Below are positions 2,273 to 24,264 of a stretch of 32,257 bases of DNA, one piece after another. The first letter of the stretch is position 1, and each line of letters begins with the position of its first letter. The notes beneath the pieces were generated by a model. That model was not told where the DNA came from, ran no database searches, and saw only the letters and a list, made by a program, of their open reading frames with translations. The DNA is from Candidatus Saccharimonadota bacterium (GTDB lineage: Bacteria; Patescibacteriota; Saccharimonadia; Saccharimonadales; UBA4665): positions 1 through 32,257 of the forward strand of contig JAEUQV010000017.1 of NCBI GenBank assembly GCA_016789655.1. The letters are read 5' to 3'. A program made the translations under genes and the position numbers.

Positions 2273-3379
2273 TTAATCTCCTTCCACCTCGCTAAACAAG
2301 GGCAATGGATACACCGTTCCACTAAATCCATCCAGCTCATGCCCGTGCTTTATACTGCCATTTCCAGTTTGAAATACGGGGTAGCCTCTTCGTCTAAACG
2401 CATTAGTTACAGATTTCTTTGGGTGGCCATCCTTTGTACAGTTTGCAGCAGCCGAAACATACGCCGTACCCCGTTTAGTATCTTCTTGTGGGGTTTTAGT
2501 ACCCAAAAACTTATCAAGAACATCTGGGCCGACATTCTGTCTACTGCCATGGTGCGGAACCTGAACGAAGCCCAGTTCGCCTGACCGATGGCCAAGTGCA
2601 ACAAAATTGTCATGAGCAAGATTGAGAGCTTCTTGCCCTGCATCACCCGTAAATAGCAGCTTCTTACCTGATACAAGCTCCAGAAGCATAATGGTACTTG
2701 AATTATTACTTGGGCTTGTTGAGCCAGAGTTCGTCAGGGTTTCTATGTGATGACTTTCTATCGCATTCATCACAGCATCTTTGGCCTTGCCAAACAACTC
2801 GGATAAGCTAGTTAGTGTAGATGCTGTTTGTAGTCTTTGACTCTTTTCAGCCGACTTATCAAGTATTAGAGGTAACAGTGCTTCGTAGAAATCGACTGAA
2901 GGCGACAGTACTGTTAAAGTGCCATATGGGGTAATGAACTGCTTGCCTGCGAACGGCTCTTCGATTGGTACATTATTCGCCTCTGCTGCTAGCTGCAAAT
3001 CATTTGAGGCGTTAAGGGAGTTTTTCAACCAGTTTGTTGCCGTCATAGAACGAAATTCATCTTGGCGATTGGTTAAATATTCATCTGAATGATTCCAAGG
3101 AAGGTGCATCCAAAGTTGCTTGACTGTTAAGTTCTCAACCACTCCTGTTAGGCCACCGATATGGTCTTGGTCTGGATGAGTGGATATCACAAGGTCAATC
3201 CATTTTGCCCCAAAGTTGTCCTGAACCAAGTCCCTGACTTTCTGCCAGTCATCTTTATACCCACCATCAATAATGACGATGCGTTGAGTACCAATATCCT
3301 CACCGTCCCATAAACGTATAGCTATGGCATCTCCGCAACTGCTGTCTCCTATGGGTAGAAATACGATGTTATGTTTCAC
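2273..3379 (-). CDS. ComEC-type metallo-beta-lactamase-fold hydrolase, stand-alone
   Basis: 368 residues, GTG start at 3379 with AAAGGA upstream. The zinc-site motifs of the fold are present in order: IIDGG (36-40), THPDQDHIGG with H68, D70, D72 and H73, FTGDAG with D246, and VPHHGSR with H276-H277. This spacing and the HHGS motif match the soluble domain of the competence protein ComEC rather than antibiotic-degrading lactamases. The competence domain and its membrane channel are absent and there is no signal peptide, so the protein is cytoplasmic. ComEC-type domains are thought to cleave nucleic acids or other phosphodiesters; the substrate here is unknown. A ~90-residue insert (about 125-215) separates the second and third motifs. 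A TATAAT/TATACT tract and TTGATA lie upstream at 3390-3420. The coupled membrane protein downstream suggests a two-gene functional unit. Confidence 0.8.
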   Translation of the reverse strand: MKHNIVFLPIGDSSCGDAIAIRLWDGEDIGTQRIVIIDGGYKDDWQKVRDLVQDNFGAKWIDLVISTHPDQDHIGGLTGVVENLTVKQLWMHLPWNHSDEYLTNRQDEFRSMTATNWLKNSLNASNDLQLAAEANNVPIEEPFAGKQFITPYGTLTVLSPSVDFYEALLPLILDKSAEKSQRLQTASTLTSLSELFGKAKDAVMNAIESHHIETLTNSGSTSPSNNSSTIMLLELVSGKKLLFTGDAGQEALNLAHDNFVALGHRSGELGFVQVPHHGSRQNVGPDVLDKFLGTKTPQEDTKRGTAYVSAAANCTKDGHPKKSVTNAFRRRGYPVFQTGNGSIKHGHELDGFSGTVYPLPLFSEVEGD

Positions 3380-3585: not shown

Positions 3586-4080
3586 TTAGTAGCTTGTAGG
3601 AATGACCTTGCAAACCTCATCAAGAAGCTCATCAGGACTCATATTGAGGTTTTGGTTTAAGTCCTTAAACTCCATTGTTATCATCACATACACCATAGTC
3701 TGAAAGTTATTCGGGTGTTCAAGTTTTTCTGCAACCTTAGTCGTGTATGCAGTTAGTCGTAATAGCTCGTCTGGCTTCTTGAATCCAGCCCTTGCGGATA
3801 CGGTCATGAGTCGCAGTTCTTCCTTACTCGCATTGGGATTCTGACGCTTGTTTACGTCATACATTTTCTTCTGCATTTTGGCTACTGAAACAGGACTACC
3901 AGCCTTCTTGAATAGCCCACCAATAAACTTGAATATAGCAACAACCCAAAAGAACAGACCGAACCATACAAGGATGCCTGCAAACATTGAGGGCAGTATA
4001 TGGAACACGCTAGGCAGCATTAGAGCTAGTCCAATTAGGAACAGTTGATAAGGCTTAATACTTTTTCTTTGCTTCGACAT
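3586..4080 (-). CDS. Two-helix membrane protein with cytoplasmic domain
   Basis: 164 residues, family not recognised. A basic N-terminus (MSKQRKSIKP) leads into a helical hairpin at about residues 11-30 and 34-55 with a short turn between them, so both termini probably face the cytoplasm. The rest, residues ~60-164, is charged and helical. AAAGGAG lies 6-7 bases before the ATG. What sets the gene apart is its leader (4081-4238), which can form either a terminator hairpin next to the ribosome-binding site or alternative long-range pairings, so expression is probably conditional. The gene sits alone between the MBL pair and the NDT-like gene, both also read leftward, inside element 1. It may be a membrane effector, but no motif demonstrates that. 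Confidence 0.7.
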   Translation of the reverse strand: MSKQRKSIKPYQLFLIGLALMLPSVFHILPSMFAGILVWFGLFFWVVAIFKFIGGLFKKAGSPVSVAKMQKKMYDVNKRQNPNASKEELRLMTVSARAGFKKPDELLRLTAYTTKVAEKLEHPNNFQTMVYVMITMEFKDLNQNLNMSPDELLDEVCKVIPTSY

Positions 4081-4238
4081 GTTTACTCCTTTTTAAAACA
4101 AAAATGACACCACGTTTGGTGTCTAAACCAGCAATAGAGTATTTAGCCCTAGTTGCTTCACGTGGTGCCATTTTCAAGGCTAAATACCACGCAAATACTT
4201 GCGGGACTCTATAACTGGTTTAGACAATACTTATTGTA
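4081..4238 (-). promoter_or_regulatory. Riboswitch/attenuator-like leader with a conditional terminator
   Basis: Read leftward, a TACAAT -10 (4233-4238) would start RNA near 4226. The RNA can form: a long stem from 4215-4226 with 4120-4131 (12 bp, perfect) continued by 4206-4212 with 4134-4140; a hairpin at 4190-4203; and a 10-bp stem from 4178-4187 with 4139-4148, giving a three-way junction. The loop segment 4160-4174 is complementary (one mismatch) to 4101-4115, outside the junction, forming a pseudoknot. A terminator hairpin GACACCA/TGGTGTC (4117-4123 with 4106-4112) followed by T5GT4 directly precedes the RBS. Both alternative pairings use bases of the terminator, so they exclude it. No known riboswitch class is recognised. 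The ~200 bases beyond (4239-4435) hold nothing else that I can support. Confidence 0.6.
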
Positions 4239-5374: not shown

Positions 5375-5596
5375 ATGCCACGACAAAGAACATGGAGCGG
5401 TCAAACGCTCACAATATCAGATAAGCCTATCATCACTACAGGAGAAGCTCGCAAGATACTAGGTAAAGAGTACGAAGAGCTTTCAGATGAACACCTAATG
5501 GGAGTAATAGTCTCTCTTTCTAAGATAGCTAGCTACTTTTTAGATAAGATTAGTGTTCCAGAAAACTATAAGGTATGTGGTAAAATGGGAGTATGA
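5375..5596 (+). CDS. Small protein overlapping the recombinase start
   Basis: 73 residues, family not recognised. The N-terminal part is basic, followed by a predicted helix rich in Leu/Ile/Val (ELSDEHLMGVIVSLSKIASYFLDKI, split here as residues ~36-61). A weak AAGGG precedes the ATG. Its TGA overlaps the recombinase ATG in the arrangement ATGA, so the two are co-translated. A different small protein (22403-22561) holds the same position before the third recombinase, which makes a recombinase accessory role such as directionality factor plausible. There is no sequence evidence beyond position and size. Confidence 0.6.
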   Translation: MPRQRTWSGQTLTISDKPIITTGEARKILGKEYEELSDEHLMGVIVSLSKIASYFLDKISVPENYKVCGKMGV

Positions 5597-7272
5597 ATGT
5601 GATGGACAAAAAAGAGCCTATCAAAGTTTACGGTTATAAGCGTGTCTCTACAGAAGAGCAAGTTGATGGAATGTCTTTACAGACTCAGGAACTCGCAATT
5701 CAAGCCTATGCAGAGCAACATAATCTTGAGGTGGTACACATCTTTCATGATGACGGTATCTCTGCAAAAACAGCCAAGCGACCTCAACTGCAAGAAATGC
5801 TCGCAAAACTCACAGCTAAAGATAATGAGGTGCATGGCGTAGTAGTTTACAACCTCAGTCGTATCTCTCGTGATTTAGAGTCATACAGTCGTGATATAGG
5901 CTATCATCTATCGGCAAAGGGCGTTCGTCTGTACTCTACAGTTGAAAACATTGACGATACACCAGAGGGTCGTTTGATGCGTAATATTGCACTCTCTATC
6001 CACCAGTATGATAACGATACAAAAAGTCGAACAGTTAAAGACAACATGAAGCAAGTTGCTCTTGAGGGTTGGTGGCAAGGCAATATCCCCTACGGATATA
6101 GCCGTCTTAAAGTACCGATTGGTGTTAAAGATAAAGACGGTAAAACTAAGGAGCGTCTCACTCTCGAACCTGATAGCAATAACGACTTAAGCGACAAGAT
6201 GCGTATGATGCTAGAGCGGTTCAGTGAGGGTGATTTGAAACAGTCTGAGCTTACTGATTATGCTGAGAGTATCGGCTTATACAGCCCGAAGGGTGAACGT
6301 TTTGCACCTCAGTCAATGAATAACATTCTAAGAAATATTACCTATGCGGGCTTTGTGTGTAATAAGATGACAGACTTTGAACCTGTAAAGGCTAAACACG
6401 TAGGTCTTATCTCGCTTGAGACATATTTACGTAATCAGGCTGTTCTTGATGGTCGTAAGCCTGATGAGGCGATGCCTCGCTTTACTGCTAGCTACCCTCT
6501 CAAGCACTCTCTGTTATGTATTAACTGTCATAAACCCTTAACGGGTAGTGCACCTACTGGAGGTTCTGGTAAGAGCTCACCTCGCTATCACTGCACAAGA
6601 TGTACAGGCACTGGTTCAAAGGGTCTTGATAGAACGAATGAGCTATTTGAAGCATTCTTAAACGATGTTACGCCTACAGATAAGACGATTAAGCTCTTTG
6701 ATGTCATTGTACGCCGTATCGCCAAAGACAAACTCTCAAACGTGAATAAGGCTATCAGCGATGTTAGAGACGATATGACCAAGATAGATACTGATATGCA
6801 GAAAGCACTTCAGTCTATGCTCGATGGCGATATCAGTAAGCAAGAGAAAGAAGACTATCAATCGTCATTACGTATTAAGCGACTCAACCTAGAGGACGAA
6901 CTCAATAAGCTACGAGACATACAGAGCCTCAATGAGTCTACTATTACCTATGTTTGTAACTTTATGGATGCTCCTGCTCGTATGTGGCAAGATGCAGACG
7001 CAGAGACAAAAGTCATCTTCCAACAGATGGTTACGGAGAACGGTATTGTATTCGACCTCAAGAACGAAAAGTTTGGAACGGACGGTTTGAGTATGTTTTA
7101 CAGATTGAAAGACAACAAAAAAGACCCATCAAAGGCTGATGAGTCCCTTATGGTGACCCAGGTTGACCAGTCGTGGAACAACATTGTTGAGGGGATTGTA
7201 CGGATAGACGAAGCCGTGGAAGAGCACGGTACCGTCAACCAAACTGATATAATCGGAGGCAGCAATGGCTAG
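5593..7272 (+). CDS. Large serine recombinase of element 1, tail fused across its att site
   Basis: 559 residues. Resolvase-type catalytic domain (~10-150) with GYKRVSTEEQ (nucleophile S19) and conserved arginines in SRISRDL; recombinase domain (~160-300) with IPYGYS; a zinc ribbon with C309/C312 and C334/C337; a coiled coil (~375-450). Large serine integrases bind attP and attB as dimers and exchange strands through a phosphoserine link. A second ATG at 5602 has better-placed GGGAG and may be the real start. The codons for SLMVT (518-522) span the core TATGGTGACCC. The 37 residues after it (QVDQSWNN...) look unlike a family tail and are read from the left end of element 2, ending 8 bases into the next gene. 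Confidence 0.9.
   Translation: MNVMDKKEPIKVYGYKRVSTEEQVDGMSLQTQELAIQAYAEQHNLEVVHIFHDDGISAKTAKRPQLQEMLAKLTAKDNEVHGVVVYNLSRISRDLESYSRDIGYHLSAKGVRLYSTVENIDDTPEGRLMRNIALSIHQYDNDTKSRTVKDNMKQVALEGWWQGNIPYGYSRLKVPIGVKDKDGKTKERLTLEPDSNNDLSDKMRMMLERFSEGDLKQSELTDYAESIGLYSPKGERFAPQSMNNILRNITYAGFVCNKMTDFEPVKAKHVGLISLETYLRNQAVLDGRKPDEAMPRFTASYPLKHSLLCINCHKPLTGSAPTGGSGKSSPRYHCTRCTGTGSKGLDRTNELFEAFLNDVTPTDKTIKLFDVIVRRIAKDKLSNVNKAISDVRDDMTKIDTDMQKALQSMLDGDISKQEKEDYQSSLRIKRLNLEDELNKLRDIQSLNESTITYVCNFMDAPARMWQDADAETKVIFQQMVTENGIVFDLKNEKFGTDGLSMFYRLKDNKKDPSKADESLMVTQVDQSWNNIVEGIVRIDEAVEEHGTVNQTDIIGGSNG
7148..7159. other. Internal attachment-core copy between elements 1 and 2
   Basis: TTATGGTGACCC equals the sequence at 24221-24232 (11 bases also at 1501). 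Upstream sequence is recombinase; downstream diverges completely from the tRNA and from 1512-1521. It is best read as the junction of two tandem insertions. Confidence 0.6.
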
Positions 7273-10105: not shown

Positions 10106-11428
10106 CTACTGCGTCTTGAGGTCGAAGCGCACGTGTCCGTTTTCCAAGCACATCGCAAATAGCTCATGAATTATGGTACGTTTGCCGATTTTTGACTCAC
10201 CCATATATAATCCACGGATTGAAGTTGACTTGTCTGCTGCTGGCCGATTGTCATCGACAGACTCTAGTTTGATTAATCTCGCCCGTAATATAGTCAGCTC
10301 ATCGTGCAGTTCGGCAACTTTGTCTGTGTATTTTTGACCCCCTATCACACCTGCCAACTTGTCCTCGTACAAATTATCCTCTATCCGTTCCAGCCGCTTG
10401 ATTTGTTGCCGAATGGCTTTCATGACAGACTCTCGGTGCTGGCCTATATACGACTGCCGCATAGATTCAAGCAGTCCAGTGAGTCTGTGTAGCAGCCTAC
10501 CGCCCGCCCGGCTATTATCAATCTCGTCAAGGCACATGAGCAAATAGTCTTCTAGCCTATCTTCACGTAGAAACTGACGCCCCTTGAACAGTGGGTTGTG
10601 CTCTTTTTTGCGTTCGTGGTATCCATCTTTCAGTTTATCCTGAACAGCCATAAACAGCTTGCGCGATAGCAGCGGCTCATGAGCACCAGGATATCTTTTG
10701 CCATCAAATTGAATTTTCCCGATATAAAAAGGGTTACGTAGCACCTTATGTACGGCCGACTTAACGAGTGGTCGTCCTTTGCTGCTGAGCAATCCGCTTT
10801 TGGCGACCTCGGCCGTCACGGTACTGATATTTTGACCGGCTTGTAGGTACATTTTGAATGCATGCTCGACCAGGAAGGCTCGCTTTTCGTCTATGACGTG
10901 TACCTTCTTTCCGTTTTCTACGGTAGTTGTGTAGCCGTACGGGGACGGCGCAGGCATCCACCCCTGAGCCAGCTTTTCTTGCCAGCCCTTCATAGCTTCC
11001 TCGCGCAGATTATCGGTGTATTTCTTGGCAAACGCCACATATATCCCCCACATCAGCTTTTCATCAGATCGTGAATACTTATGTATAACCAGACTCTCTT
11101 TTACCATGTGCAGCCTACGATGCTCATCGCTTTCAAGCCAATCGTCCACAACTACAGCATCACGCAAGTTGCGCGTCAAACGGTCGGTCTTTTCGACAAC
11201 CAGGTTAACGATTTTTTGATGCTTGACATACCTCAGCATCTCACGGAACACTTTGCGCTGCTCGTTCTTTGATGCTGTTTCGGATATGCGAAACTTCTTC
11301 ACTACTCGAAGTTTTTGGTCGGCACAATATTTATCCATCAGCTTTTGCTGAGAGTTGAGCGAATAGCCATCCTCTTGCGATTTACTGGACACGCGTGCCA
11401 GAGTTACTGTTTTAGTATTTGTTGCCAT
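10106..11428 (-). CDS. Serine recombinase without zinc ribbon
   Basis: 440 residues from the ATG at 11428, which has AAAAGGAGGG 5 bases upstream. Catalytic domain (~8-155) with LARVSSKSQEDGYSLNSQ (S14) and VEKTDRLTRNL; recombinase domain (~165-285) with SPYGY and LRNPFYIGKIQFDG; a coiled-coil region (~325-400). Where the family normally has a Cys4 zinc ribbon (after HNPLFKGR, ~290) there are no CxxC pairs, and the chain jumps to LEDYLLMCLDEIDN. Either an internal deletion or a natural short form. Its C-terminus lacks the SLMVT motif, so it probably does not use the tRNA-Glu site. It is divergent from the TraD-like gene and may be the remnant of another insertion or an internal resolvase. Confidence 0.85.
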   Translation of the reverse strand: MATNTKTVTLARVSSKSQEDGYSLNSQQKLMDKYCADQKLRVVKKFRISETASKNEQRKVFREMLRYVKHQKIVNLVVEKTDRLTRNLRDAVVVDDWLESDEHRRLHMVKESLVIHKYSRSDEKLMWGIYVAFAKKYTDNLREEAMKGWQEKLAQGWMPAPSPYGYTTTVENGKKVHVIDEKRAFLVEHAFKMYLQAGQNISTVTAEVAKSGLLSSKGRPLVKSAVHKVLRNPFYIGKIQFDGKRYPGAHEPLLSRKLFMAVQDKLKDGYHERKKEHNPLFKGRQFLREDRLEDYLLMCLDEIDNSRAGGRLLHRLTGLLESMRQSYIGQHRESVMKAIRQQIKRLERIEDNLYEDKLAGVIGGQKYTDKVAELHDELTILRARLIKLESVDDNRPAADKSTSIRGLYMGESKIGKRTIIHELFAMCLENGHVRFDLKTQ

Positions 11429-11486
11429 ATATCCCTCCTTTTGGTTAGATAGCACCTATAATTATGGCTTTTAGCGGGTAACTTCT

Positions 11487-22561: not shown

Positions 22562-24264
22562 TCGGCAAAAACGCGGTAGCCGCTATACGCGTATCAACGA
22601 CCAAGCAAGGTACGGATGGCGACTCGCCCGAGGCGCAAAAAGAGCAGATAGAGCGTTTTGCGGCCAACAAGGGCATCGTGATCAAAAAGTTCTTTGTGTT
22701 CATGGAGTCGGCCAGCAAAGAACAGCAACCGATGCAGGAGGCGGTCGATTATTGTACCGACGCCGTGAATGACGTTGATCTGTTTATCATAAAGTCAATC
22801 GACCGCTTTACACGCGGCGGCAGCTTGAGCTACGATATGCTGAAATCACAGCTAGAGGCCAGCCGCGTGCAGCTCGTCGACATTTACGGCGTCATCAGCG
22901 CCCAGCAGGTCAATACGCTCGACCACTTGGGTTTCGAGTACAAATGGAGCATATACAGCCCCAGCAAGAAATCTGAAATACTAGAAGCGGAGCGATCCAA
23001 AGACGAGCTGCGCGACATCATGAGCCGTATGATTGGTGCTGAAATCCGCTACACGCAAAACGGTTACTGGATGCGCCAGCCACCCTACGGCTTCGTGAGT
23101 GAAAAAGTCGACACCAACCAAGGCAAGCGCACCATACTACGCCCCCGCGAAGAGGAGGCAAAATATGTACGCATGATATTCGACTTGCGTGCCGACGGAT
23201 TGCTTACCGACCAGGAGATCGTAGAGAAACTCAATGATCTGGGTTATCAGACACGCGTCAGCTACATACGCAATACCGAAGACCTGACGCAAGTTATTTC
23301 CAAGCGCGGCGGCCGCCCACTCACCGTCAAACGCCTGCACAAGATCGTCACCAACACGATCTACGCAGGTATCAACGTGGAGAAATGGACAAACTATAGC
23401 CCCACGAAATGTGCTTTTGACGGGCTCATCAGCATCGACCTGTTTAACCGAGCAAACCGGGGCAAGAAATACATTGCCTACAATGAGGCCGACGGTGAGT
23501 ACGAGATACAACGCCAGCTACCCAAAAAGCATGTGGTAGACAAAACAATCCGCAATGCCGACTTCCCCTACAAAAAGTTCATCCTCTGCCCGGAGTGCAA
23601 GCATGCTCTGCTTGGCAGCGCGAGCCGAGGTAAATCAGGAAAGCTCTACCCGGCATATCACTGTAGCCACCACGGCCACTATTTCCGTATACCAAAAGAT
23701 AAGATGGACGAGAAAATCGTACAGTTCATCGGCCGTATAAAGATACATGACGACAAACTCGACCTGCTGCTCGATACTATCAGGAAAGAATACGAGCGCA
23801 GGCAGGCGCTGTCGGGCGACGACCGAAAAGCCCTACAGAAGCAGATTGACGCGCTTGAGGGTCAAGCTTCGGTTGCGCTCGACAAGATTATGATGGTGTC
23901 CAACCCAACTACCATCGCCTATCTGGAGGGCGAGATCGACAAAATTAAGCAAAATATCAAGAAGCTGCAAAAGGAGCAGCGGCAAATGGCAGACAAAAAA
24001 CCGCTCGATATCGACCGCATCTTAGCTCGGGTGCGCTACTTCGTGGAAAACCTCGATCTACTACTGTTAAGGCAGCGCGATCCGCACAAAAAAGCCCAAC
24101 TTTTTGGAGTACTTTTTGACCAGCTCCCAACCTATGCAGATTTAGATTGTGGAACACAAAGAACACCCCTTTTTACAGGGGTGAACTCCGTTTTTCGGCT
24201 ACTAACCGAAGAAAAATCTCTTATGGTGACCCCAAGGAGAGTCGAACTCCTCTTGCCGGGATGA
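22546..24264 (+). CDS. Large serine recombinase whose 3' end lies in tRNA-Glu
   Basis: 572 residues. Catalytic domain (~8-160) with AAIRVSTTKQ (S17) and IKSIDRFTRGG; recombinase domain (~175-320) with RQPPYGF and IVTNTIYAGINVEKW; a zinc ribbon with CPECKHALLG and a CSHH second half (C, C, C, H-type); a coiled coil (~415-485). It is the likely integrase of element 2. The frame runs 41 bases into the antisense of tRNA-Glu: the last 13 residues (MVTPRRVELLLPG) are encoded by the attachment core and the tRNA. When excised, the tail after MVT would instead be the 37 residues now attached to the first recombinase. A hairpin CACCCC/GGGGTG at 24164-24183 could give the tRNA a replacement terminator on the minus strand. 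Confidence 0.92.
   Translation: MQSELVGKNAVAAIRVSTTKQGTDGDSPEAQKEQIERFAANKGIVIKKFFVFMESASKEQQPMQEAVDYCTDAVNDVDLFIIKSIDRFTRGGSLSYDMLKSQLEASRVQLVDIYGVISAQQVNTLDHLGFEYKWSIYSPSKKSEILEAERSKDELRDIMSRMIGAEIRYTQNGYWMRQPPYGFVSEKVDTNQGKRTILRPREEEAKYVRMIFDLRADGLLTDQEIVEKLNDLGYQTRVSYIRNTEDLTQVISKRGGRPLTVKRLHKIVTNTIYAGINVEKWTNYSPTKCAFDGLISIDLFNRANRGKKYIAYNEADGEYEIQRQLPKKHVVDKTIRNADFPYKKFILCPECKHALLGSASRGKSGKLYPAYHCSHHGHYFRIPKDKMDEKIVQFIGRIKIHDDKLDLLLDTIRKEYERRQALSGDDRKALQKQIDALEGQASVALDKIMMVSNPTTIAYLEGEIDKIKQNIKKLQKEQRQMADKKPLDIDRILARVRYFVENLDLLLLRQRDPHKKAQLFGVLFDQLPTYADLDCGTQRTPLFTGVNSVFRLLTEEKSLMVTPRRVELLLPG
24222..24242. other. Right attachment-site copy inside tRNA-Glu
   Basis: Same 21 bases as 1501-1521. 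From 24224 on they are the CCA end, acceptor 3' strand and part of the T-arm of tRNA-Glu, so integration leaves the tRNA complete. Confidence 0.85.

Follow-up and report, generated by a model that had tools for sequence, protein, structure and literature searches.

The leader of a gene for a 164-amino-acid protein in the window, by which we mean the whole 32,257-nucleotide stretch of DNA analysed, is a copy of a previously undescribed RNA family that is new to Rfam. It lies on the minus strand from 4225 to about 4100, between a promoter (4238) and the start codon (4080), and is likely to be a cis-acting transcription attenuator, in which an internal pseudoknot (PKa) plus a terminator would form the OFF state and a pseudoknot between loop and tail (AT) the ON state. 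Sequence comparison has established that the helices P1 and P3, the terminator and AT are conserved and covary, that their strands overlap, and where the promoter lies; PKa and P2 are supported statistically. In agreement with the sequence-only reading, which had called the leader an RNA of unknown class, the window matched only tRNA among the 4227 models of Rfam release 15 at gathering score, and four member loci gave no match at E ≤ 1. The family was not found either in the open-access papers searched on riboswitches, structured RNA and integrative elements of Patescibacteria.

Competing helices and their covariation

The 158-nt leader folds with an energy of −52.1 kcal/mol, as compared with −32.3 ± 4.0 kcal/mol for shuffled sequences (z = −5.0; 0/200 shuffles as good). 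All three stems of the three-way junction that had been predicted, P1, P2 and P3, were located on the minus strand at the claimed site. The arms of the outer stem P1 (about 4226–4206 and 4140–4120; 21 nt) are 90% complementary, and those of P3 (4187–4178 and 4148–4139) are complementary at 10/10 positions. The predicted 15-base pseudoknot, AT, pairs 4174–4160 with 4115–4101 at 14/15 positions, and its sole mismatch turned out to be a G.U wobble that is kept across the family. A terminator hairpin with a T-run is found where it had been placed, ahead of the ribosome-binding site, and the proposed mutual exclusion holds, as the 3′ arm of the terminator is common to both structures; AT has covariation of its own. 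The two features that mark an attenuator, an intrinsic terminator ahead of the coding region and a mutually exclusive alternative helix, are therefore both present. The parts of the leader, all on the minus strand, are listed below in the order of transcription.

4233–4238, minus: −10 box TACAAT, from the sequence, 13 to 8 nt upstream of the first P1 base
4206–4225, minus: P1 5′ strand, GUCUAAACCAG..AUAGAGU, covariation in alignment A8; predicted transcription start at 4225
4190–4203, minus: P2 hairpin CGCAA-GUAU-UUGCG, its 3′ strand overlapping the PKa 5′ strand
4187–4192, minus: PKa 5′ strand GCGUGG, by permutation test of complementarity
about 4178–4187, minus: P3 5′ strand, UAUUUAGCC, 99.5% paired with double changes in 7/7 pairs
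4160–4174, minus: AT 5′ strand, AAAAUGGCACCACGU, which is the P3 loop; complementarity and covariation
4160–4165, minus: PKa 3′ strand CCACGU, the 3′ part of the AT 5′ strand
about 4139–4148, minus: P3 3′ strand, GGCUAAAUA, covariation
4121–4140, minus: P1 3′ strand, covariation in A8; its last three bases, GAC, open the terminator
4106–4123, minus: terminator hairpin GACACC-AAACGU-GGUGUC, then A and UUUUU at 4105–4100; covariation, 99.7% paired
4101–4115, minus: AT 3′ strand, ACGUGGUGUCAUUUU, the terminator 3′ arm plus U-tract; complementarity and covariation
4086–4090, minus: ribosome-binding site AGGAG, from the sequence
3586–4080, minus: first gene behind the leader, 164-aa protein with N-terminal hydrophobic helices

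Covariation was assessed in A8, an alignment of 66 members based on a covariance model. Paired cells amounted to 98% in P1, 99.5% in P3 and 99.7% in the terminator, the latter with double changes in 6/6 pairs; the pairs of these three helices are part of the model, so their counts lean on the alignment. AT is absent from the model, and was paired in 82–90% of cells per helix. Double-sided changes occurred in most pairs of the tested helices. For P1, P3 and AT jointly, 94.5% of cells were paired, with double changes in 24/29 pairs and 307 doubly changed cells versus 76 expected from shuffles, and none of 500 shuffles reached these values; for the terminator and P3 jointly, 99.6% were paired. 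When the partner was slid by one to three columns as a control, pairing fell to 42–49%. The most telling position is the AT column pair 97–245 just outside the terminator (G-C 36, C-G 19, U-A 4, A-U 1), because the terminator alone would not need that pair. The covariance check that the sequence-only reading had proposed thus found all main stems kept in homologous leaders.

The link between terminator and AT was seen member by member as well. In 63/66 members the terminator hairpin could be delimited by script, and every one of these carries both the terminator and the AT partner. Complementarity of the loop to its own tail scored 29.2 in the training set, compared with 17.8 ± 0.65 for tails of other members, and 17 further members kept apart from that set, most of them from other CPR classes, gave the same result (30.4 versus 20.5 ± 1.5 when permuted).

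The spacing of promoter elements gives good support to the predicted transcription start at the first P1 base. A hexamer matching TATAAT at five or more of six positions, with its first base 11–13 nt upstream of the first P1 base (GUC), is present in 62/64 members versus 5.5% of control positions, and 41/64 have the extended TGn motif. No −35 consensus is conserved among the 64 members examined.

Such a strong −10 box at P1, together with the terminator, would yield a discrete structured RNA of ~125 nt, and this RNA might itself be the product, a small RNA or type III antitoxin-like molecule, with the gene behind it expressed by leak. Leaders of type III toxin-antitoxin systems have the same order of structured RNA (the ToxI pseudoknot), terminator and gene (the toxin). 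However, the leader here is a single ~125-nt domain without tandem repeats, its pseudoknot consumes the terminator itself, the downstream proteins are unrelated, and covariation in AT would be useless if the RNA ended at the terminator. No endoribonuclease of the ToxN, CptN or TenpN families appears among the Pfam families and the 25 PADLOC families listed for 62 first genes. We therefore consider it improbable that the terminated RNA is the product, and return to the attenuator.

Two proposed states of the probable attenuator and what may tip them

PKa had been overlooked by the first reading. It joins 4192–4187 with 4165–4160, that is, GCGUGG directly 5′ of P3 pairs with CCACGU in the P3 loop, which makes an H-type pseudoknot. 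Its complementarity scored 15.8 versus 11.4 ± 0.33 in 200 permutations, and it is weak in a minority of members. A P2-like hairpin scoring at least 11 was found in 73% of members versus 19% of shuffles, and is missing in some (L080, L083, L091 and L103). P2 overlaps the PKa 5′ strand, and PKa competes with AT for CCACG in the P3 loop; P2, PKa, AT and the terminator therefore make up a chain of alternatives.

In the mechanism we propose, RNA polymerase would start at the base of P1 (4225), and P2, PKa and P3 would fold first, at which point the P3 loop strand GGCACCACGU has two possible partners. In what we infer to be the OFF state, GGCACCACGU would pair backwards with GCGUGG to form PKa, H-type with P3, leaving the tail free to fold into the terminator, and transcription would stop after ~125 nt. 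In the ON state it would pair forwards with the terminator 3′ arm and U-tract to form AT, so that termination does not occur; AT would also keep P1 closed and AGGAG free. Some signal, either a small molecule or a protein, may tip the balance between PKa and AT. Inspection by eye also revealed, after the terminator in L117, L118, L075, L064, L067 and L104, a second hairpin able to hide the ribosome-binding site, such as CCUCCCCAUUA / UAAUGGAGG in L117, which could possibly be a second lock on translation.

This scheme is akin to the trp-leader attenuators, where hairpins 1:2, 2:3 and 3:4 compete, in having a chain of overlapping strands in which each pairing frees or blocks the next, and, ahead of the first gene, a decision between terminator and antiterminator. 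In contrast to them, the window leader showed no leader peptide when inspected; the antiterminator joins loop and tail in a pseudoknot and takes up the U-tract, and PKa, in the role of anti-antiterminator, is likewise a pseudoknot.

Readings in which a ligand, a protein or no signal at all governs the balance are sub-versions of the same attenuator, and the pattern of conserved bases bears on all of them. Positions conserved at 90% or more are GUCU, the U that opens P3, AA ahead of the loop core, G-GCA-C in the loop, UAGACA-C, G-UGUC and the U-tract. Strongly conserved bases thus fall almost without exception in strands of the competing helices (P1, AT, the terminator and the start of P3), and therefore no metabolite pocket stands out. 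Conservation is moderate in the A-rich loop that follows PKa, where one position is 88% A.

If the leader were a metabolite riboswitch, the junction of P1, P2, PKa and P3 would be the aptamer, and a small molecule would stabilize PKa (OFF) or AT (ON). H-type pseudoknots occur in the preQ1 classes and SAM-II, and terminator-coupled pseudoknots in the ZTP and fluoride riboswitches; the leader resembles these in that a compact pseudoknot within a 5′ leader is in competition with an expression platform. The pseudoknot beside a junction, the A-rich third loop with its 88% A, the mutually exclusive terminator and antiterminator, and a wide distribution at one to four copies per genome all agree with such a role. 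Unlike these riboswitches, however, the leader has neither a similar Rfam entry nor the block of near-invariant unpaired bases typical of known aptamers, and the genes downstream share no common pathway. We regard a metabolite riboswitch as possible, though on the unlikely side.

A host- or element-encoded RNA-binding protein that stabilizes one of the pseudoknots would be consistent with a shape that is kept while the sequence drifts, with conservation in helices and not in loops, and with a small conserved ORF that often lies beside the recombinase described below. But no candidate RNA-binding protein was identified, and a factor encoded by the element may not serve all copies, as 35/77 sites lack a large serine recombinase within 5 kb; a protein-responsive attenuator thus seems rather unlikely.

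The leader might also act without any signal, its constant low read-through governing the dosage of acquired genes and insulating them. Rough energies, which ignore loop costs and P1, are −22.0 ± 1.6 kcal/mol for AT, −8.9 for PKa and −9.4 for the terminator, and on this rough basis AT is near balance with PKa plus terminator. The G.U wobble of AT is present in 57/64 members (A8 columns 99 and 243), where the competing terminator has A-U in 61/64 (columns 211 and 243), as though AT had been adjusted to pair less strongly at this one spot. The narrow spread of AT stability, the conserved wobble, the diverse cargo and the absence of a visible pocket would fit a fixed attenuator. Against it, a weak terminator would suffice for a fixed leak, and the conservation of both PKa and AT across classes seems excessive, so that we find this sub-version doubtful as well. 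As for a trans-acting RNA, the copies within genome G316 differ in loop and terminator sequences (L085 versus L086, L090 and L112), which argues against one shared by all.

Distribution of the family and the genes behind it

When 99 relatives were searched at the DNA level, the leader turned up ahead of different genes in two further genomes of the order (81% and 80% identity), and a consensus query run on 393 genomes from the order picked out 22. Covariance model R1, built from four members, detected it in 87 of the 393, with one to four sites in each; the genome from which the window comes has a second one (G000:C83). None of six same-genus genomes carried it in the R1 search, and the distribution is therefore patchy. 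A second model, R2, built from 66 members, was positive in 30 of 380 genomes sampled across the phylum, of which eleven belong to other classes. The family occurs in other Patescibacteria classes, the named records being Saccharibacteria and 'Nomurabacteria' MAGs. Sequences diverge strongly across members while the architecture of extended −10, P1, P3, terminator beside the ribosome-binding site, and AT is constant. No family match came from collections of phages and plasmids or from two viral-contig patterns.

An Oscillospiraceae-labelled MAG also carries copies, one of them on a contig that, read by eye, includes a gatC-like frame, and 2/197 genomes of that order match; rare spread beyond the phylum is possible, with binning errors as the alternative. 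At about 1930–1950 of L157, from the Oscillospiraceae-labelled genome, a methyltransferase-like motif reads ADPP-TGA-DI, with TGA where W is expected, which would be either a pseudogene or recoding.

The 164-aa window protein has no Pfam match. Its gene is 87% identical in genome G100, behind a homologous leader; no homolog other than itself was found in 60 relatives, so that the leader is accompanied by different genes from place to place. In 50 of the 53 cases with a gene called, the first gene has the same strand as the leader. Hydrophobic segments are present in 70% of first genes versus 22% of the remaining frames of these regions (p = 1e-11), and by this measure most first genes encode membrane or secreted proteins. 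Families among them are DUF4352, DUF5067, Fib_succ_major, OmpA, NHL repeats, the bacterial PH domain and DUF805, and further type III methyltransferase and NucS-like nucleases. The suggestion that the gene is possibly toxic was not borne out: the window gene matches no family, first genes are mostly surface or membrane proteins with some nucleases and methylases, and toxicity of the controlled genes is not indicated.

Genes for IS1595-like transposases lie near the leader in L080, L083, L088, L091 (downstream) and L077. In L080, L083 and L091 the transposase gene follows that of a ~56-aa membrane protein (..KGHSIIKHILLCFVG..SPNHYW), which is also found in L064 and L103, near a serine recombinase.

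Association with serine-recombinase elements

A large serine recombinase lies within 5 kb of 42/77 sites, versus 2.4 expected. At sites without one, no tyrosine integrase was found close by. In the window the neighbouring features are as follows.

1501–1521, plus: att-like direct repeat TATGGTGACCCCAAGGAGAGT, which recurs unchanged as the tRNA-Glu 3′ end (24222–24242)
1790–2272, minus: membrane protein, further cargo on the leader strand; operon membership putative
2273–3379, minus: metallo-beta-lactamase-fold protein, further cargo on the leader strand; operon membership putative
5375–5596, plus: small ORF (~73 aa, ..TGEARKILGKEYEELSDEHL..), divergent, directly ahead of the serine recombinase
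5593–7272, plus: large serine recombinase of the same mobile element as the leader, divergent; homologs beside the leader in G100, G385 and G069

The small ORF stands directly ahead of the serine recombinase in several elements, and might serve as a directionality or regulatory factor. Six related loci have a compact unit of ~2.7 kb, made up of leader, cargo, small ORF and recombinase, that stops at a tRNA-Gly gene. G100 has the cargo gene and recombinase of the window flanked by direct repeats 5868 bp apart, one of which is the tRNA-Glu 3′ end. The window repeat at 1501–1521 is probably the left end of an integrated element. Between it and tRNA-Glu (24224) there are three large serine recombinases (5593–7272, 10106–11455 and one near 23149), and because they lie between tRNA-Glu-type repeats, 1501–24298 is suggested to hold several integrative elements stacked at one tRNA gene. 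The recombinase frame 5593–7272 continues past an att-like core, ATGGTGACCC, at 7150, the point where the G100 homolog meets the tRNA gene.

Tight linkage to recombinases, and P1 arms that form an inverted repeat in DNA, might lead one to take the leader for a DNA-level element of the serine recombinase, either its attachment site or a palindrome that it binds. We hold this to be very improbable, since compensatory changes between loop and tail and a strand-specific T-run ahead of the ribosome-binding site need RNA. The leader was also rejected as an attachment site in its own right: att repeats are located elsewhere, one forming the 3′ end of a tRNA gene and the other being its duplicate (L154: 6450 and 12318; window: 1501–1521 and 24222), at least ~2 kb from the leader.

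The leader as an attenuator probably gates the expression of cargo in serine-recombinase mobile elements, many copies heading such cargo. Its probable job would be to keep accessory cargo genes, mostly for surface or membrane proteins, off until a cellular cue, and many of these genes ride on tRNA-targeting serine-recombinase elements. We tentatively suggest, as a reading short of probable, that it belongs to a new signal-responsive RNA switch class which these elements have spread among Patescibacteria, and through which unrelated cargo (surface proteins, nucleases, methylases) answers one common cue, possibly host contact or infection.

Patescibacteria are ultra-small, mostly uncultured bacteria that live on other bacteria, and to our knowledge little is known of their gene regulation. 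An RNA family of such size, undescribed in Rfam and with a clear two-state design, offers a regulatory switch that is directly testable, and it marks accessory surface genes and compact integrative elements that are candidates for roles in host interaction and defence.
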